Shown: positions 1-13,378 of the stretch, in pieces
Layout: each line of letters begins with the position of its first letter
Numbering within the stretch: the stretch's first letter is position 1
Notes under the pieces: model-generated
Seen by the model: only the letters and a program-made list of their open reading frames with translations
What the model was told of the DNA's origin: nothing
Database searches by the model: none
DNA from: Candidatus Saccharimonadota bacterium
GTDB lineage: Bacteria > Patescibacteriota > Saccharimonadia > Saccharimonadales > Saccharimonadaceae
Direction of reading: 5' to 3'
Assembly (NCBI GenBank): GCA_017514105.1
Contig: JAFWKY010000007.1
Coordinates: 1-37,193 of the forward strand
Length of the DNA stretch: 37,193 nucleotides
Position numbers and translations under genes: made by a program

Positions 1-42
1 GTATTGATTGTCAAGGCATCCACTATCAGTGCCCTTAATTAC
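1..42 (-). rRNA. 23S rRNA, 5' end only (gene runs out of the window)
   Basis: On the minus strand the sequence contains GTGGATGCCTTGACA preceded by GGTAATTAAGGGCACTGA. This matches the conserved 5' end of bacterial 23S rRNA (the GGTGGATGCCTTGGCA region). The mature 5' end is placed near 42 by analogy with E. coli. The bulk of the gene lies beyond the left edge. Upstream, at higher coordinates, there is no 16S rRNA or tRNA before the AbiEii-like gene at 383, and a dedicated promoter is present, so this 23S appears to be transcribed apart from 16S. Confidence 0.88.
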
Positions 43-243
43 CTTTTTATGCATTGACATAACTAGCAATCGAAGTTCGATTGCGATGCTACGTCTTTAA
101 AATCTTTTCATCGTTAATCTCAAATTGTTAATCGGAGAGTCTTCAAGAATTGGTCTGAGTCGTTAAAAGCGGCCTCAAATTAATTCCTCGCTTTCCTATC
201 TTTCTGTAGAGGTCGCAAAGGCGACTTGCTTTAACTGTTACCC
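43..243 (-). other. 23S rRNA leader (pre-rRNA 5' spacer)
   Basis: This is the roughly 195-nt region between the predicted start (about 237) and the 23S 5' end. It contains no ORF or tRNA. A perfect 8-bp inverted repeat, GCAATCGA (66-73) with TCGATTGC (77-84) around a 3-nt loop, lies close to the 23S end. A second short hairpin (GTCGC/GCGAC around a 4-nt loop, near 212-225) lies near the start. Such stems are usual in rRNA leaders as processing or antitermination structures, but no specific box A was identified. Confidence 0.6.
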
Positions 244-272
244 ATTATATCGCACATTTCCGGGCATGTCAA
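244..272 (-). promoter_or_regulatory. Consensus sigma70-type promoter of the 23S unit
   Basis: On the minus strand, -35 TTGACA (267-272), a 17-bp spacer and -10 TATAAT (244-249) match the consensus at all 12 positions. The predicted start is near 237, about 195 nt upstream of the 23S 5' end. A promoter of this strength fits stable-RNA transcription. Confidence 0.88.
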
Positions 273-351
273 CACCTTTTTTGGACTTTTTTTGAGTTTT
301 TTGTGCATTTTGCATCTCCACAACTCCCTACGGAGGTGCGCACTGTTACTT

Positions 352-378
352 GTTACGAAAACTCGGAGTTTTCGTAAC
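352..378. repeat. 27-bp palindrome, copy 1 (left flank of the AbiE module)
   Basis: Two 13-bp arms, GTTACGAAAACTC (352-364) and its exact reverse complement (366-378), surround a single G at 365. The exact reverse complement of the whole 27-mer is found at 2081-2107, on the other side of the toxin-antitoxin pair. There is no T-tract on the minus strand after it, so it is not a typical intrinsic terminator although it lies just downstream of the AbiEii-like stop codon. Confidence 0.85.
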
Positions 379-382
379 AGCT

Positions 383-1408
383 CTATCCCAATTCGTTTAT
401 TTCTTTCTCAAGTTTCGCCATTTCATCAGTTATCATATTAAAATCTGGATATTCGCCATAAAACATCGACTGCATCGCATCGTAGTCTTTGCGCAAGACC
501 TCTTCATTGTCCGCAGACGGCACAAGCCTCAATGTCCCCGGCTTAGCCATATCATATCTCGCCCAGCCTGCATGATAAAACTTATCTTTGAACTCAGCAA
601 CATCCCTCAACAACTGTATATTATCCAACGCCGACTTCTTGAACGGTGATTTCGCCATACAATACATATCGTAGTAATGTCTAGAATATCTTTGCGGGGT
701 ACGATTCCCGTCCGGTCTGTGTGCCTCAGCGTGTAAGATTGTTGCTTTCTCCCAAAAACTTCTCTCCGCAGTAGTTGTCAAGATAACCGTTCCTACCTCC
801 ACAAAAAGATCGGAATAACATTCTGCTACATACGGCGTGATTAATGCGTTTTGAGTTGGTGTCCAGGCTGCAAGAGGGCCAATTTCCAGACGAATAGCCG
901 GCGTCAACGCAAAATCTCTGAAAATACTTGGATAGTGAAACAGTACAGTCAGCTCACCATTTTCTTCATACAAAGAAAACTTGCTACTTTTTGGCAAAAT
1001 ACCACCGATATCTTCCGAAATCTTTGGAATAAAGTCATCTGCCAAAAATTTCCTAAACTTCTCCGCACATTCAGCTTTAAATTTCTCCCGTTGATTATTA
1101 CTAGATAATCCCAATGGATAATCCTTTGCATATCCCAAGACTCGCCAATCCAAAATTAGATCAACATCCTCAGAAAATCTCTTAATCAGATGATATGCTT
1201 TCGAAAGGCTCGTCCCGCCCTTGAATGCCAAATGATCTCTCCACGGGCTTTCATGAAAAAGATAGTCCAGAATAAAACAAACCCAAAAATCTTTTTCTAC
1301 AATCCCCTCAGACATCCCAATTTTTGCGGCGGTATTACGAAACAACGCTTCGCGATCTTTAGCTGATAATCTAGCAACTTTACGCATCGTTTTTGTCACG
1401 ACTCCCAT
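383..1408 (-). CDS. AbiEii/AbiGii-type nucleotidyltransferase toxin
   Basis: The 341-residue product belongs to the nucleotidyltransferase AbiEii/AbiGii toxin family, the toxin half of AbiE-type (type IV) toxin-antitoxin and abortive-infection systems. The diagnostic region is FKGGTSLSKAYHLIKRFSED at about residues 62-81, giving the GG(S/T) nucleotide-binding loop, followed by the D81/D83 acidic pair. A later segment, RSFWEKATILHAEAHRP near residue 220, is also typical. Related toxins transfer nucleotides, probably to tRNA; the target here is unknown. The gene overlaps the upstream AbiEi-like gene by 29 bp, so the pair is translationally coupled. Neither candidate start (ATG at 1408 or at 1387) has a clear Shine-Dalgarno. 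The catalytic residues appear intact. Confidence 0.88.
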   Translation of the reverse strand: MGVVTKTMRKVARLSAKDREALFRNTAAKIGMSEGIVEKDFWVCFILDYLFHESPWRDHLAFKGGTSLSKAYHLIKRFSEDVDLILDWRVLGYAKDYPLGLSSNNQREKFKAECAEKFRKFLADDFIPKISEDIGGILPKSSKFSLYEENGELTVLFHYPSIFRDFALTPAIRLEIGPLAAWTPTQNALITPYVAECYSDLFVEVGTVILTTTAERSFWEKATILHAEAHRPDGNRTPQRYSRHYYDMYCMAKSPFKKSALDNIQLLRDVAEFKDKFYHAGWARYDMAKPGTLRLVPSADNEEVLRKDYDAMQSMFYGEYPDFNMITDEMAKLEKEINELG

Positions 1409-2027
1409 TCACGGCATCTACCGACGCAATTTCCTTGAGACAATTATAAATCCAAAGCGGCAAGTTATTCCCCTCTGCTAGCATTTTTTCACGCTCCGCT
1501 TGGTCAAAATGCGCCGCAAAGTTCGCAATCATTTCTTCTGTAATGCGCTCTTGCCCTATAGCACGCAGGGCCTGCACTGCCATAATAGTCTTCGGAGAAA
1601 GCGCAGCGAATTCGCGGTCTTCTCTATGAGTGAAAATGAGTTTTGCGTTTTTTAATTCATATTCTCTAGATGGCCCAGAACTGATAAATTCCCAGGTATT
1701 AGGAACCTGCGTAGAAATCCCCAAATAGTTTAATGCAGTTTCGCCACTTGGCGCAATCATCCAGCCATTTTTCTCAGCAAGGGCTTTGGCAACCTTTTGC
1801 GGATTTGGCTCGACCAACTCACCCAACATAGAATTATAAACAGGCTTTTCGTAAACACCTCTGACCATTCTGCGTATTAGTCCAGATGATTCCAAGCGTG
1901 CCAGAATTGCCTTTATTGAATCGTAATCACCGAGATCCAAAAATTTTTGGATATAAAAAATCTCACCCTCCGGATACGAGTTAATTCTGTCCATAATCTT
2001 TTTCGTAATATCTGTATTTTCTTGCAT
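1380..2027 (-). CDS. AbiEi-like antitoxin (DUF6088-type)
   Basis: The 215-residue product is the likely antitoxin partner. An N-terminal winged-helix-like region (about residues 1-70) is followed by a conserved block containing PNPQKVAKALAEKNGWMIAP and TALNYLGLSTQ-like sequence, typical of DUF6088 proteins paired with AbiEii toxins. The start at 2027 is chosen because AAGGA lies at 2034-2038, 6 nt upstream. An ATG at 2054 abuts the -10 box and cannot be used from that promoter. Antitoxins of this type usually repress their own operon; the palindrome at 2081-2107 overlaps the expected -35 position and is a natural operator candidate. The assignment to the family is from remembered motifs. Confidence 0.82.
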   Translation of the reverse strand: MQENTDITKKIMDRINSYPEGEIFYIQKFLDLGDYDSIKAILARLESSGLIRRMVRGVYEKPVYNSMLGELVEPNPQKVAKALAEKNGWMIAPSGETALNYLGISTQVPNTWEFISSGPSREYELKNAKLIFTHREDREFAALSPKTIMAVQALRAIGQERITEEMIANFAAHFDQAEREKMLAEGNNLPLWIYNCLKEIASVDAVNGSRDKNDA

Positions 2028-2054
2028 AATTAATCCTTTTGTATGACTAAACAT

Positions 2055-2060
2055 ATTATA
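2055..2060 (-). promoter_or_regulatory. Extended -10 promoter of the AbiE pair
   Basis: TATAAT at 2055-2060 (minus strand) is preceded by TGT, an extended -10. The expected -35 position (2078-2083) reads AACACT and is poor; it overlaps the edge of the palindrome at 2081-2107. The predicted start is near 2048, leaving a leader of about 20 nt that contains the Shine-Dalgarno. Confidence 0.6.
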
Positions 2061-2080
2061 ACATATTTTTTAACATAAGT

Positions 2081-2107
2081 GTTACGAAAACTCCGAGTTT
2101 TCGTAAC
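2081..2107. repeat. 27-bp palindrome, copy 2 (right flank, upstream of the AbiE promoter)
   Basis: Arms GTTACGAAAACTC (2081-2093) and its reverse complement (2095-2107) flank a single C at 2094. The 27-mer is the exact reverse complement of copy 1 at 352-378. It lies between the AbiE promoter and the terminator of the neighbouring surface-protein gene. It could be a mobility or recombination end, or an AbiEi operator. Confidence 0.85.
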
Positions 2108-2125
2108 AAATTCGAAAACAAAACC

Positions 2126-2156
2126 AGAAATACCGCTCTATTGGAGCGGTATTTCT
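2126..2156 (-). terminator. Intrinsic terminator of the DUF916-like gene
   Basis: A perfect 13-bp stem, AGAAATACCGCTC (2126-2138) with its complement at 2144-2156, surrounds a 5-nt loop. On the minus strand it is followed by GGTTTTGTTTTC. It lies 45 bp beyond the stop codon at 2202. Confidence 0.78.
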
Positions 2157-2201
2157 GCTACATTATCTTATGCGCAACTATTTCTTGCTTTGCCTCAATC
2201 A

Positions 2202-3185
2202 TTACGCGGCCGCAGCATCCTGTGCTCTCTTATTCTTTCCACGGCTTCGCGCACGCATCACGATCCAGATAATAATCGCAATGATGACGAAGAAGATCAA
2301 GAATAGTAACCATACCGGACAAACGATCACCAATTTTTCCGTCACGCTCGGTTCAGTATCGGTTGAATCATAATATACAGTCTGTCGCACTCTAAATATC
2401 CCCACCGCAGGAGTCTTGTCCCAAGTCTGAGTAATCATGCGCGTTGCTCCAGGCAACACATAACTTGACCCCATATCTTCCTCAGTAGTATAAACTTCTT
2501 CGTCAGAAAATAGCGGGAATACTTGCATGTTATAACTTATCTTTGCATGCGTATTTCCTTCATTTTTTACCACAAATGAGGTGGTAATCGGTGGCGTCAA
2601 CACAAATGATTGAATATTGTTATCCATAATCTCGCCTTTCACCACGATATCACCTGACACTTCTACGTAGACCAACGAAACTATCCCTAGTACTTCCCTA
2701 ATGGCCACGGTATCATCACTACTTGCTTTCTGTGTTGCTTCTGCATCCGTTTTTACTCGCACGCCGAAGTATTGTCCTCCTCCCCTTGCATCCTTCGGTA
2801 CCGTAATTGTATAATACGCCTTTCCTTTCTCCCCTGGTTTTAATACTCCGTGCACTTCTTCCGCCGCCGATTCGTCATCATCCGATATCGTCACCCAGTT
2901 TATAATATCCGTATAATCATTCTCGGCGTCAAAACTCGGCGAGTATTTTCCGTCATCACTTACCGAAAATGGTACTGCTTCCACAATGTAGTAGAAATCT
3001 CCTTCCGCATCACTCGGATTAAATGCGCTCACTTCCCCAGTCACCGACTGCCCAGGTGTCAACACATATTCCTGATCCTGTGGCGACACCGTAAAAGCCG
3101 ACACGCTAGCACAAGGAGCCAACGCACTCACTAACATCATCATGGTGCCAACTAAACTAACCAATATATTTTTATTTTTTGCCAT
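2202..3185 (-). CDS. Membrane-anchored surface protein, DUF916-like
   Basis: The 327-residue product has a Sec signal peptide (residues 1-30), an exported beta-rich body, and a C-terminal transmembrane helix (about 291-312) followed by a basic tail, giving a type I topology. The body starts with a segment like the DUF916/WxL-interacting fold: a PGQSVTGEV turn, NPSDAEGDFYY, INWVTI, then LKPGEKGKAYYTITVPKDARGGGQYFGV. In Firmicutes such proteins bind peptidoglycan or partner WxL proteins. No WxL partner was recognised here, so the role on this cell surface is unknown. Start: AAAGGAGG lies 5 nt upstream of the ATG, behind a TATAAT at 3211-3216. A hairpin terminator follows at 2126-2156. Confidence 0.75.
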   Translation of the reverse strand: MAKNKNILVSLVGTMMMLVSALAPCASVSAFTVSPQDQEYVLTPGQSVTGEVSAFNPSDAEGDFYYIVEAVPFSVSDDGKYSPSFDAENDYTDIINWVTISDDDESAAEEVHGVLKPGEKGKAYYTITVPKDARGGGQYFGVRVKTDAEATQKASSDDTVAIREVLGIVSLVYVEVSGDIVVKGEIMDNNIQSFVLTPPITTSFVVKNEGNTHAKISYNMQVFPLFSDEEVYTTEEDMGSSYVLPGATRMITQTWDKTPAVGIFRVRQTVYYDSTDTEPSVTEKLVIVCPVWLLFLIFFVIIAIIIWIVMRARSRGKNKRAQDAAAA

Positions 3186-3219
3186 TAATACCTCCTTTAT
3201 ATTACTCTATATTATACAC

Positions 3220-3786
3220 TTAATCAGATATTTCGCAAGAGAAACCTTTAGCTTCGTACTGTTTTTTTAGCCCATCTAGCGACTTTACTACATTCGTCCC
3301 CCGATCCAAGAGAAAATACTCTACTGTATTTTCATTTATTCTGCCTATATCTCGTGTCGTTTGCACGAATTGCATCTTCGTCCCATCAACGGAAAAATTA
3401 GACGAAAATATCTCTATATCCTCACCATACCTTTTGATCAAAACATCGTTGTAGTCTGACCTAGCATAAGTCTCCGCCGACTCCGCATTCTTTGCCGTTC
3501 CGTAATCTCCTTCGTATAACAGGGAAATAGACGACAGCTTATCGTCGCGAAAATTCGCCGTTATTGTATTCGCATAAGAGTTCGCTTGCACGCTGGTAAG
3601 CGCAGGATGCAAAGATGTTGCACTTTTACATACTATTCCTGTCACCTTTGCCTCGCCGCCAATTTTTACATCTCCGGTCGCCTCACCTCTCATCGCATTT
3701 ATTATTACTACTACAATCAGTACTACTGCAACTAGCACAAGCGCTAATCCTATCCATAACTGATTCTTTCCGTTATTTTTACTCAA
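3220..3786 (-). CDS. Hypothetical membrane-anchored extracytoplasmic protein
   Basis: The 188-residue protein is not assigned to a family. It has one N-terminal transmembrane helix (about residues 10-32) and a soluble extracellular domain with two cysteines, one early (GIVCKS) and one near the C terminus (FSCEISD), possibly a disulfide. The TTG start at 3786 is preferred because GGAGG lies just before it. An in-frame ATG at 3816 overlaps the -10 box (TGC-TATAAT, 3805-3810). It is followed within 35 bp by the DUF916-like gene, so the two may be co-transcribed, although the latter has its own -10. Confidence 0.65.
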   Translation of the reverse strand: MSKNNGKNQLWIGLALVLVAVVLIVVVIINAMRGEATGDVKIGGEAKVTGIVCKSATSLHPALTSVQANSYANTITANFRDDKLSSISLLYEGDYGTAKNAESAETYARSDYNDVLIKRYGEDIEIFSSNFSVDGTKMQFVQTTRDIGRINENTVEYFLLDRGTNVVKSLDGLKKQYEAKGFSCEISD

Positions 3787-8024: not shown

Positions 8025-8750
8025 TTATATACCAAGTGCCGGCTCGTTTGGACAATTTTCCAAAATTCGCAAAATCGCCTCTTTCTCGGCCTCTGTCACC
8101 CACAGGCTGTATTTGTATTTTACAGATACTTGTCTCGCCACATACTGACAACGAAATCTCTTGTTCGGCGGCAGCCAAGTCGCCGCATCACCATCAGATT
8201 TCTTTTCGTTCGCAGCGGCATCCACCGCCAAGAGGTTCAATGGGTCAGTTGCTATCTTGTATCGCACTCCCGGCTCCATATATTGTGCACCCTTCTGCCA
8301 AGCGTCAGACAACGCCACTACGTGATCTATTTGTATTCCCTTAGATATATCCTCTCGCTTTGCAAAAACCTTGTGCTCCCCTGTATATGGCTCATCATAT
8401 TCACCAGAAAGCACATTACAACCGTCCAACACCGCACTATCGCCAAATTCTCTCTTGATAATGCGTTGCCGCAAATTACAACCTTCCACCGTTGGCCAGC
8501 CACTATAGAACTCGTCTCTCTTGTATCCAGTTTTTGGCGCACGCCCCTTCACTTCCAACTTTTCCAAAATATCTCTCGCCAGAGGCGCATCCACATCCTT
8601 CTCGCTCACCGCTATGGCGCTATAATCTTCCTCGCTATTTTCCGCCGACGTATAAATTCGCTCATAACTCGCTGGATTACAAATCACCCACACCGCCACC
8701 CCGACAAGTGCCACGATTACTGCAAACAACCTCCGTTTTTTTAGTTTCAT
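8025..8750 (-). CDS. Secreted or anchored HNH nuclease (DUF1524, GmrSD C-terminal type)
   Basis: The 241-residue protein has an N-terminal hydrophobic signal or anchor (about residues 7-24), so it acts outside the membrane. The nuclease core shows IQIDHVVALSDAWQKGAQ (D142, H143), TDPLNLLAVDAAANEKKSDG and DAATWLPPNKRFRCQYVARQ, a His-Me/HNH layout typical of secreted DUF1524 nucleases of Actinobacteria and Saccharibacteria. Two cysteine pairs may form disulfides. Likely role: degrading external DNA or RNA for nucleotide salvage, since relatives lack nucleotide synthesis (family knowledge). The start at 8750 is fixed by TGC-TATAAT ending 6 nt upstream (leaderless). It heads a probable operon with the rhodanese-like and thioredoxin-like genes. 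Confidence 0.83.
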   Translation of the reverse strand: MKLKKRRLFAVIVALVGVAVWVICNPASYERIYTSAENSEEDYSAIAVSEKDVDAPLARDILEKLEVKGRAPKTGYKRDEFYSGWPTVEGCNLRQRIIKREFGDSAVLDGCNVLSGEYDEPYTGEHKVFAKREDISKGIQIDHVVALSDAWQKGAQYMEPGVRYKIATDPLNLLAVDAAANEKKSDGDAATWLPPNKRFRCQYVARQVSVKYKYSLWVTEAEKEAILRILENCPNEPALGI

Positions 8751-8756
8751 ACCAAC

Positions 8757-8762
8757 ATTATA
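8757..8762 (-). promoter_or_regulatory. Leaderless extended -10 promoter of the HNH nuclease
   Basis: TGC-TATAAT on the minus strand is followed by 6 nt and then ATG (8750), so the predicted +1 is the A of the start codon. No -35 is evident. It is divergent from the plus-strand promoter at 8773-8801. Confidence 0.7.
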
Positions 8763-8772
8763 GCATGTAGAC

Positions 8773-8801
8773 TTGATTTTTCTCGCGAAATGCGGTAAAA
8801 T
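8773..8801 (+). promoter_or_regulatory. Promoter of the 8856-9299 gene
   Basis: TTGATT (8773-8778), a 17-bp spacer and TAAAAT (8796-8801) lie on the plus strand. The predicted start is near 8808, giving a leader of about 48 nt with AAGGGGGTG before the ATG. Confidence 0.68.
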
Positions 8802-8855
8802 ATCATGGTGTCTTTTTAAATTGCACAAGCATTTATTAACTAAGGGGGTGAAAAA

Positions 8856-12418: not shown

Positions 12419-13378
12419 TCAAACGATTTCCACCCACTCTTTCACTACAAAATCTTCCCCAGCCACATCCGCTGCCGCCAAAATTGGATTCAATTCTCCA
12501 AATTCTCTCTCATGATATTTGAGGAAACATTCTGCTGCATATCTCATTTTTTTTAATTTTTCGGCACCAACTGCCATCATTCCACCACCATAATCATCAT
12601 TTTTACGATATTTCACTTCTGTAAAATACAGGTTACTCCCCTGTCGCGAAACAATATCAATTTCATAAAAATACGTCCTGAAATTACGCCCTATAATCGT
12701 GTGGCCCGCTTTCTCTAAATACTTCACCGCCGCATCTTCACCAAGCGTACCCACAAAAGTTGTATTTTTCTTCTTTGCCTCACTCCGCGAAAAACCTACC
12801 AAACTCTTTATCGGCTCAAAACTCCGCCTATGTTCTTCACAAGGCCCATTTTCACGTATTGCCGCTATATGCGCCGCCGTTCCATACCCAACGTGTTTGT
12901 CAAAACCATATGCCGGAAATCGTTTTCCCGCCTCCAACATATACTTATCACGCGCTACTTTCGCAATAATTGACGCCGCCGAAACTTCCTTTACCAAATC
13001 GTCCGCTTTCACCATTGTTGTGACATATTTCGCTAATGTTGTCAAGGATAAAAAATTTACTTTTCCATCAATTACTATCTGCGAAAAACTCGTGTGAAGC
13101 GCCCGAACCGACTTCACAGCGCGTCTAGTCGCCAGTCTAAGAGCCTCCGAAATGCCCAACTCATCTATCTCGCGCGGCGACACCCAGCCGAGCCCAGTCG
13201 CTGGCGCCTCCCTCATGATAATTTCCGCATATTTTTCTCGCTTTTTCGCACTTAGTTTCTTAGAATCTTTTAGTTCTGCCACCCACTCAGGTTTTTCATC
13301 GGGCAAAATCACCGCTCCCACCACTAGTGGCCCTGCTAGCGGACCTCTTCCTACCTCGTCAATTCCCAAAATCGCCAT
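12419..13378 (-). CDS. rnhB: RNase HII fused to a YraN-type nuclease-like domain
   Basis: Two proteins that are normally separate are joined in this 319-residue product. Residues 1-195 are RNase HII, which removes ribonucleotides from DNA: GIDEVGRGPLAGP with D7/E8, VIDGK with D104, and SIIAKVARD with D144. Residues about 208-319 match the YraN/UPF0102 family: GTLGEDAAVKYLEKAGHTI, RNFR, then E239-I-D241 and FTEVKYR (E254, K256), a PD-(D/E)XK-like active site. The linker is short (SRSEAKKKN). The genes rnhB and yraN are neighbours in many bacteria, so the fusion is plausible. It is leaderless: TGT-TATAAT (13385-13390), 6 nt, ATG. Confidence 0.93.
   Translation of the reverse strand: MAILGIDEVGRGPLAGPLVVGAVILPDEKPEWVAELKDSKKLSAKKREKYAEIIMREAPATGLGWVSPREIDELGISEALRLATRRAVKSVRALHTSFSQIVIDGKVNFLSLTTLAKYVTTMVKADDLVKEVSAASIIAKVARDKYMLEAGKRFPAYGFDKHVGYGTAAHIAAIRENGPCEEHRRSFEPIKSLVGFSRSEAKKKNTTFVGTLGEDAAVKYLEKAGHTIIGRNFRTYFYEIDIVSRQGSNLYFTEVKYRKNDDYGGGMMAVGAEKLKKMRYAAECFLKYHEREFGELNPILAAADVAGEDFVVKEWVEIV

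Follow-up and report, generated by a model that had tools for sequence, protein, structure and literature searches.

Genes and promoter of the AbiE operon

In this study, a stretch of 37,193 nucleotides (in the following called the window) from a Candidatus Saccharimonadota bacterium, a small gut member of the Saccharibacteria, was analyzed; the source assembly comprises 0.5 Mb in 17 contigs. At its left end, all on the minus strand, lie the 5′ end of a 23S rRNA gene (1–48, cut by the contig end), a two-gene toxin-antitoxin operon and a further gene, here called gene X (2202–3185). The position beside a 23S gene, proposed in the original prediction, was confirmed on the homologous stretch of a related genome (L011 of genome G210, see below), where LSU_rRNA_bacteria was found at positions 1–120; this rRNA-end stretch aligned to window positions 1–302 with 82% identity, the window piece itself being too short for Rfam. 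A consensus scan located the promoter of the 23S gene at 244–272 (TTGACA-17-TATAAT, 12/12 positions).

The antitoxin gene abiEi (1380–2027) comes first in the operon, and its frame overlaps that of the toxin gene abiEii (383–1408) at 1380–1408. The toxin is a nucleotidyltransferase (Pfam PF08843, E = 9.9e-39, 134 bits at a cut-off of 22.5; PADLOC AbiEii, E = 2.3e-103) with the GGTS...D.D motif conserved in the alignment. The antitoxin is of the DUF6088 type (Pfam PF19570, E = 8.5e-31; PADLOC AbiEi, E = 4.4e-61). Against NCBIfam TAA_AbiEi it scored only 29.6 bits, far below the cut-off of 150, and is therefore placed outside that narrower subfamily. Its open frame extends to 2054, but the start codon at 2027 appears better placed, since the −10 box TATAAT of the operon is located at 2055–2060 and homologues align from the second methionine. 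By both proteins and by the operon order, the pair is assigned to the AbiE type IV toxin-antitoxin systems; a dyad is present in its promoter, and its binding by the antitoxin is a prediction. Sequence searches gave no safe-scoring match of AbiEi or AbiEii to a solved structure, and an AlphaFold prediction of the antitoxin from two sequences (mean pLDDT 39) was not used.

Gene X encodes a protein of 327 amino acids with a signal peptide and a C-terminal membrane segment, for which no Pfam family scored above cut-off. It is followed by an intrinsic terminator (2125–2157, minus strand) with a T-rich tail to 2109, and relatives that lack AbiE have similar hairpins in the corresponding position. 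Elsewhere in the window, a ribonuclease HII is fused with a UPF0102 (YraN-like) domain in one frame (12419–13378), and a protein with an apparent N-terminal membrane segment carries a GmrSD C-terminal (HNH-type) nuclease domain (8025–8828).

Sequence, number and distribution of the palindromes

The two AbiE genes are enclosed by a pair of perfect palindromes of 29 bp, TGTTACGAAAACTC[G/C]GAGTTTTCGTAACA, at 351–379 (downstream of the toxin gene) and 2080–2108 (upstream of the antitoxin gene), with G and C, respectively, as centre base on the plus strand. They had originally been described as 27-bp palindromes; the palindromy holds, whereas each copy is 2 bp longer. The toxin stop codon occupies 383–385, so that 3 bp separate it from the left palindrome, instead of the 5 bp given before. 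For a window of the same size and composition, about 0.0002 perfect 14-1-14 palindromes are expected by chance; two near-identical ones in one window are beyond chance. The copies had also been called exact reverse complements, and in the window the inverted pair does match at 30/30 positions if one flanking base is counted. Since each copy is palindromic, however, this means merely that they are identical save for the centre base, and the orientation of such a palindrome is carried by that base alone.

A search of the window's genome with up to 3 mismatches returned these two copies and no third, in agreement with the earlier observation, and a generic REP or scattered repeat was thereby ruled out. 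Scanning 84,980 species genomes for the exact palindrome gave a single match, in Candidatus Saccharibacteria RGIG2371 from goat ileum (genome G210), and in 174 genomes of the genus, searched with up to 3 mismatches, the palindrome occurred elsewhere only on one contig of RGIG2371 (JAFRCN010000001.1 = G210:C5, locus L011). The suggested search of related genomes thus yielded only one further genome, with the same module between the pair; the spacing of the palindromes is 1730 bp there and 1729 bp in the window, and the downstream copy lies 3–4 bp past the toxin stop in both. In G210 both copies share one centre base; together with a flanking GAATT they constitute a 34-bp direct repeat, so the inverted arrangement is not a conserved trait. 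Around other cargo, or elsewhere, the palindromes were not found in the window's genome, the 174 genus genomes, the 84,980 species genomes or IMG/VR. As IMG/VR contained neither the exact palindrome nor a relative of the antitoxin, carriage of the module by viruses is unsupported.

An upstream dyad conserved across DUF6088-type operons

For comparison, the 130 bp upstream of abiEi were scanned in 26 DUF6088-type operons by a fixed rule (ends TG...CA, span 27–32, at least 9 of the 11 outer pairs matching). A dyad was detected in 17 of the 26 operons, from several phyla, and in 0.9% of shuffled upstream regions; as the loci were picked for diversity and some are related, the comparison with the shuffles gives no formal probability. 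Under this strict search, no clear dyad was found in the other 9 family members. The gapped upstream dyads have half-sites of the type TGTnAcgAAAA and span 28–30 bp. More distant abiE operons of the genus (40–50% amino-acid identity) each bear one dyad directly before the antitoxin gene, namely TGTAACGAAAA..TTTTCGTTACA, TGTCACGAAAA..TTTCGTGACA and TGTCACAAAAT..TTTTGTGACA. A relative occurs in 490 plasmid records, and plasmid-borne DUF6088 operons of Firmicutes and Proteobacteria with a dyad were found in Anaerococcus, Agrobacterium, Mesorhizobium, Cupriavidus, Sphingomonas, Sinorhizobium, Pseudomonas and Tistrella (TGTCACGAATA.., TGTCAGAAAAA..TTTTCTGACA and similar forms). Downstream of the toxin gene, the same rule detected a dyad in only 2 of the 26 operons, those of the window and G210.

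Because position and half-site of the dyad are kept across the DUF6088 family, the upstream palindrome is very probably the operator of AbiEi, as one of the two original readings had it. The overlap with the promoter noted originally is supported by the −10 box at 2060–2055, from which the −35 region falls in or next to the proximal arm of the palindrome. An overlap with the −35 region is the classical position for repression. AbiEi would therefore be expected to bind the upstream palindrome with one half-site TGTTACGAAAA per arm and to repress its own operon.

Limits of the DNA shared with G210

In the toxin-antitoxin genes, window and G210 differ at 10–13% of the third codon positions. This divergence is far below that of the neighboring genes, which indicates that the module was exchanged after the hosts had split. 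To the right, the shared tract passes the upstream palindrome and enters gene X, which is 85–93% identical to its G210 counterpart over 2229–2428 and only 52–68% in the rest; beyond this switch point it resembles the gene of a third genome, G181 (mostly 75–93%). A single breakpoint at about 2431 accounts for 390 of 464 informative sites, with 107 of 126 favouring G210 on one side and 283 of 338 favouring G181 on the other, and the imported tract reaches about 320 bp beyond the right palindrome. Judged from these sites, gene X joins two lineages in a sharp chimera, as left by homologous recombination and not by a site-specific exchange at 2080–2108. Gene X (2202–3185) is also noteworthy by itself as a clear-cut case of Saccharibacteria species recombining with one another. 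Within the otherwise 80–100% identical tract, positions 2158–2201 are only 48% identical to G210.

To the left, identity between window and G210 begins exactly at the first base of the downstream palindrome (351, corresponding to 8045 in L011). Further out, the window continues with 48 bp that could not be placed and then with the 23S promoter region, whereas G210 has 7.6 kb of other genes, a flank for which no close relative was found in the genus. The G210 gene nearest to the palindrome is a pseudogene, the 5′ part of which is missing from the palindrome edge on. Since this cut and the break in synteny both lie at the palindrome edge, at least one of the two left junctions was made at the palindrome, to all appearance without homology. 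Its source might be a replication break at this palindrome or a rearrangement in which the operator was copied; either would suffice. The 7.6 kb between the 23S gene and the AbiE module of G210 also contain a diversity-generating retroelement (L011 1409–4757), absent from the window, with a reverse transcriptase, a FISUMP-domain variable protein and a 218-bp repeat pair (2732–2949 and 3176–3393), of which all 13 differences are at T on the plus strand (A on the coding strand).

Many genomes of the genus lack the module, and in them the 23S promoter follows immediately on gene X and its terminator. The spot between this promoter and the terminator of gene X (303–350 in the window, with relatives L077–L096) holds almost nothing in many of the genus genomes and different cargo in others; the interval beside the 23S gene is a variable spot in the genus. 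The empty site of the window could be bracketed only, the intergenic DNA being too diverged to fix the left junction within 303–350.

These limits bear on the other original reading, in which the palindromes are the ends of a mobile cassette. Taken more broadly, they could be its termini or the sites at which it recombines, comparable to inverted terminal repeats or pdif modules, and would travel with the toxin-antitoxin genes. It would fit this reading that they closely flank the two genes, that synteny breaks and the adjoining G210 gene is cut at the outermost base of the left palindrome, and that the module is clearly younger than the divergence of its hosts. Such a cassette should, however, leave a lone palindrome at an empty target, and no lone copy, be it scar or target, was present in the 174 genus genomes with up to 3 mismatches; the only exact match among the 84,980 species genomes surrounds the same module. 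The shared tract continues for about 320 bp outside the right palindrome, and a chimeric breakpoint in this place means that, on that side, the palindromes are not the ends of the moving unit. Furthermore, the copies are direct in G210 and inverted in the window by the centre base alone, a recombinase gene is absent from the module, and conservation of the operator already accounts for the palindrome sequence. Taken together, we regard a mobile cassette as very improbable. The genus genomes lacking the module have no palindrome, and on the right the shared tract ends near 2431 and not at 2108; only the left edge coincides with a palindrome. Exact flanking, as claimed originally, thus applies to the two genes but not to the transferred DNA, which runs past the right palindrome. 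A Xer/dif-type site was considered as well and is unsupported, given a half-site equal to that of the DUF6088 operators and the lack of any site without the module in the 84,980 species genomes and the 174 genus genomes.

The operator reading leaves the left synteny break at the palindrome edge unexplained. In principle, the operator could double as a site of breakage or recombination, with AbiEi or a host nuclease acting at the palindrome and turning the module's outer edge into a hot spot for the exchange of flanking DNA. If true, the exact coincidence of the synteny break with the downstream palindrome would be accounted for, yet we give this idea hardly any credence.

Possible roles of the downstream palindrome

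The unusual part of the locus is the downstream copy of the predicted operator, which was seen in one lineage of the module only (window and G210). Its sequence is the same as that of the upstream dyad, in line with the initial suggestion of a second operator or decoy, and with the same 29 bp it should be bound by the same AbiEi. Placed between the toxin stop codon and the 23S promoter, with 78 bp to the −35 box of the latter, it would most likely act as an auxiliary operator or roadblock. Candidate roles are formation of a loop with the upstream site at a distance of 1.7 kb, titration of AbiEi, or shielding of the 23S promoter from transcription coming from the operon, perhaps aided by the RNA hairpin that the palindrome encodes. 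Between the two module copies of this lineage, divergence is too small to prove selection on the downstream palindrome.

Alternatively, the downstream palindrome might act as RNA, its hairpin ending the transcript or protecting the 3′ end of the mRNA, so that the operator identity would mark its origin only. It can fold into a 13-bp stem closed by a loop of 3 bases (about −15 to −17 kcal/mol, z about −2.3), at nearly the same distance from the toxin stop in both genomes. The stem is A+T-rich, though, no T run follows it, and the other abiE operons of the genus have no hairpin at the corresponding site after the toxin gene; we therefore consider this role unlikely. An intrinsic terminator at this position was not called by the terminator scan.

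Somewhat more weight, although still well short of an even chance, is given to a functionless relic, left by a tandem duplication of the module with loss of the second gene pair or by repair of a break at the palindrome. A repeat matching at 34/34 positions in G210 (GAATT plus palindrome) is what a duplication would be expected to produce, and the junction at the palindrome cuts the adjoining gene in that genome; palindromes are known weak points during replication. A relic is harder to reconcile with the finding that both arms are intact in both genomes, which differ in the centre base only, and no remnant of a promoter or of abiEi was found past the downstream copy in the window or in G210.

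Overall, we consider it likely, on the strength of the sequence comparisons, that the locus is an AbiE operon with its operator present twice and that the upstream palindrome is bound by AbiEi. The sequences themselves show that Saccharibacteria species exchanged the module and, along with it, the 3′ end of gene X, with a chimeric breakpoint of the kind that homologous recombination is expected to leave.

Comparison with known systems and significance

Like the AbiE system of Streptococcus agalactiae (PMC3985639), the window has a two-gene operon with the antitoxin first and a nucleotidyltransferase toxin second, and a promoter inverted repeat with 11-bp half-sites beginning with TGTT. The S. 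agalactiae AbiEi binds TGTTGCTTTTA-N27-TAAAAGCAACA in its own promoter (PMC3985639); in the window, by contrast, the antitoxin is of the DUF6088 type, the half-sites are 7–8 bp apart instead of 27 bp, and a second whole dyad lies past the toxin gene. More than one set of operator repeats also accompanies the AbiEi-like antitoxin of Rv2827c-Rv2826c in Mycobacterium tuberculosis (PMC7319586), but all four repeats are in the promoter there, whereas the second, predicted operator of the window lies at the opposite end, behind the toxin gene. A precedent for a functional extra site is provided by ICESsuHN105 of S. suis, the AbiEi of which binds, and has been shown to act at, a second palindrome outside the promoter, the oriT (PMC11062541); in the window, binding to a further palindrome is predicted. 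That extra site belongs to a mobile element, while the one in the window adjoins the 23S promoter and no element was found. In pdif modules of Acinetobacter plasmids (e.g. PMC6449649), toxin-antitoxin genes often lie between two short sites, as in the window; however, pdif sites are Xer sites that surround cargo of many sorts, whereas the window palindrome matches a predicted antitoxin operator and was found nowhere else.

An AbiE toxin-antitoxin operon is of a kind already known, and the putative operator copy past the toxin gene is what is new here. The conserved dyad offers an operator model for the large and little-studied DUF6088 type of AbiE antitoxins. The locus would be a naturally occurring example of an operator duplicated behind the last gene of a toxin-antitoxin operon, beside an rRNA promoter. 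It also documents that Saccharibacteria species have recently exchanged a toxin-antitoxin module through homologous recombination, in a variable spot next to the 23S gene.
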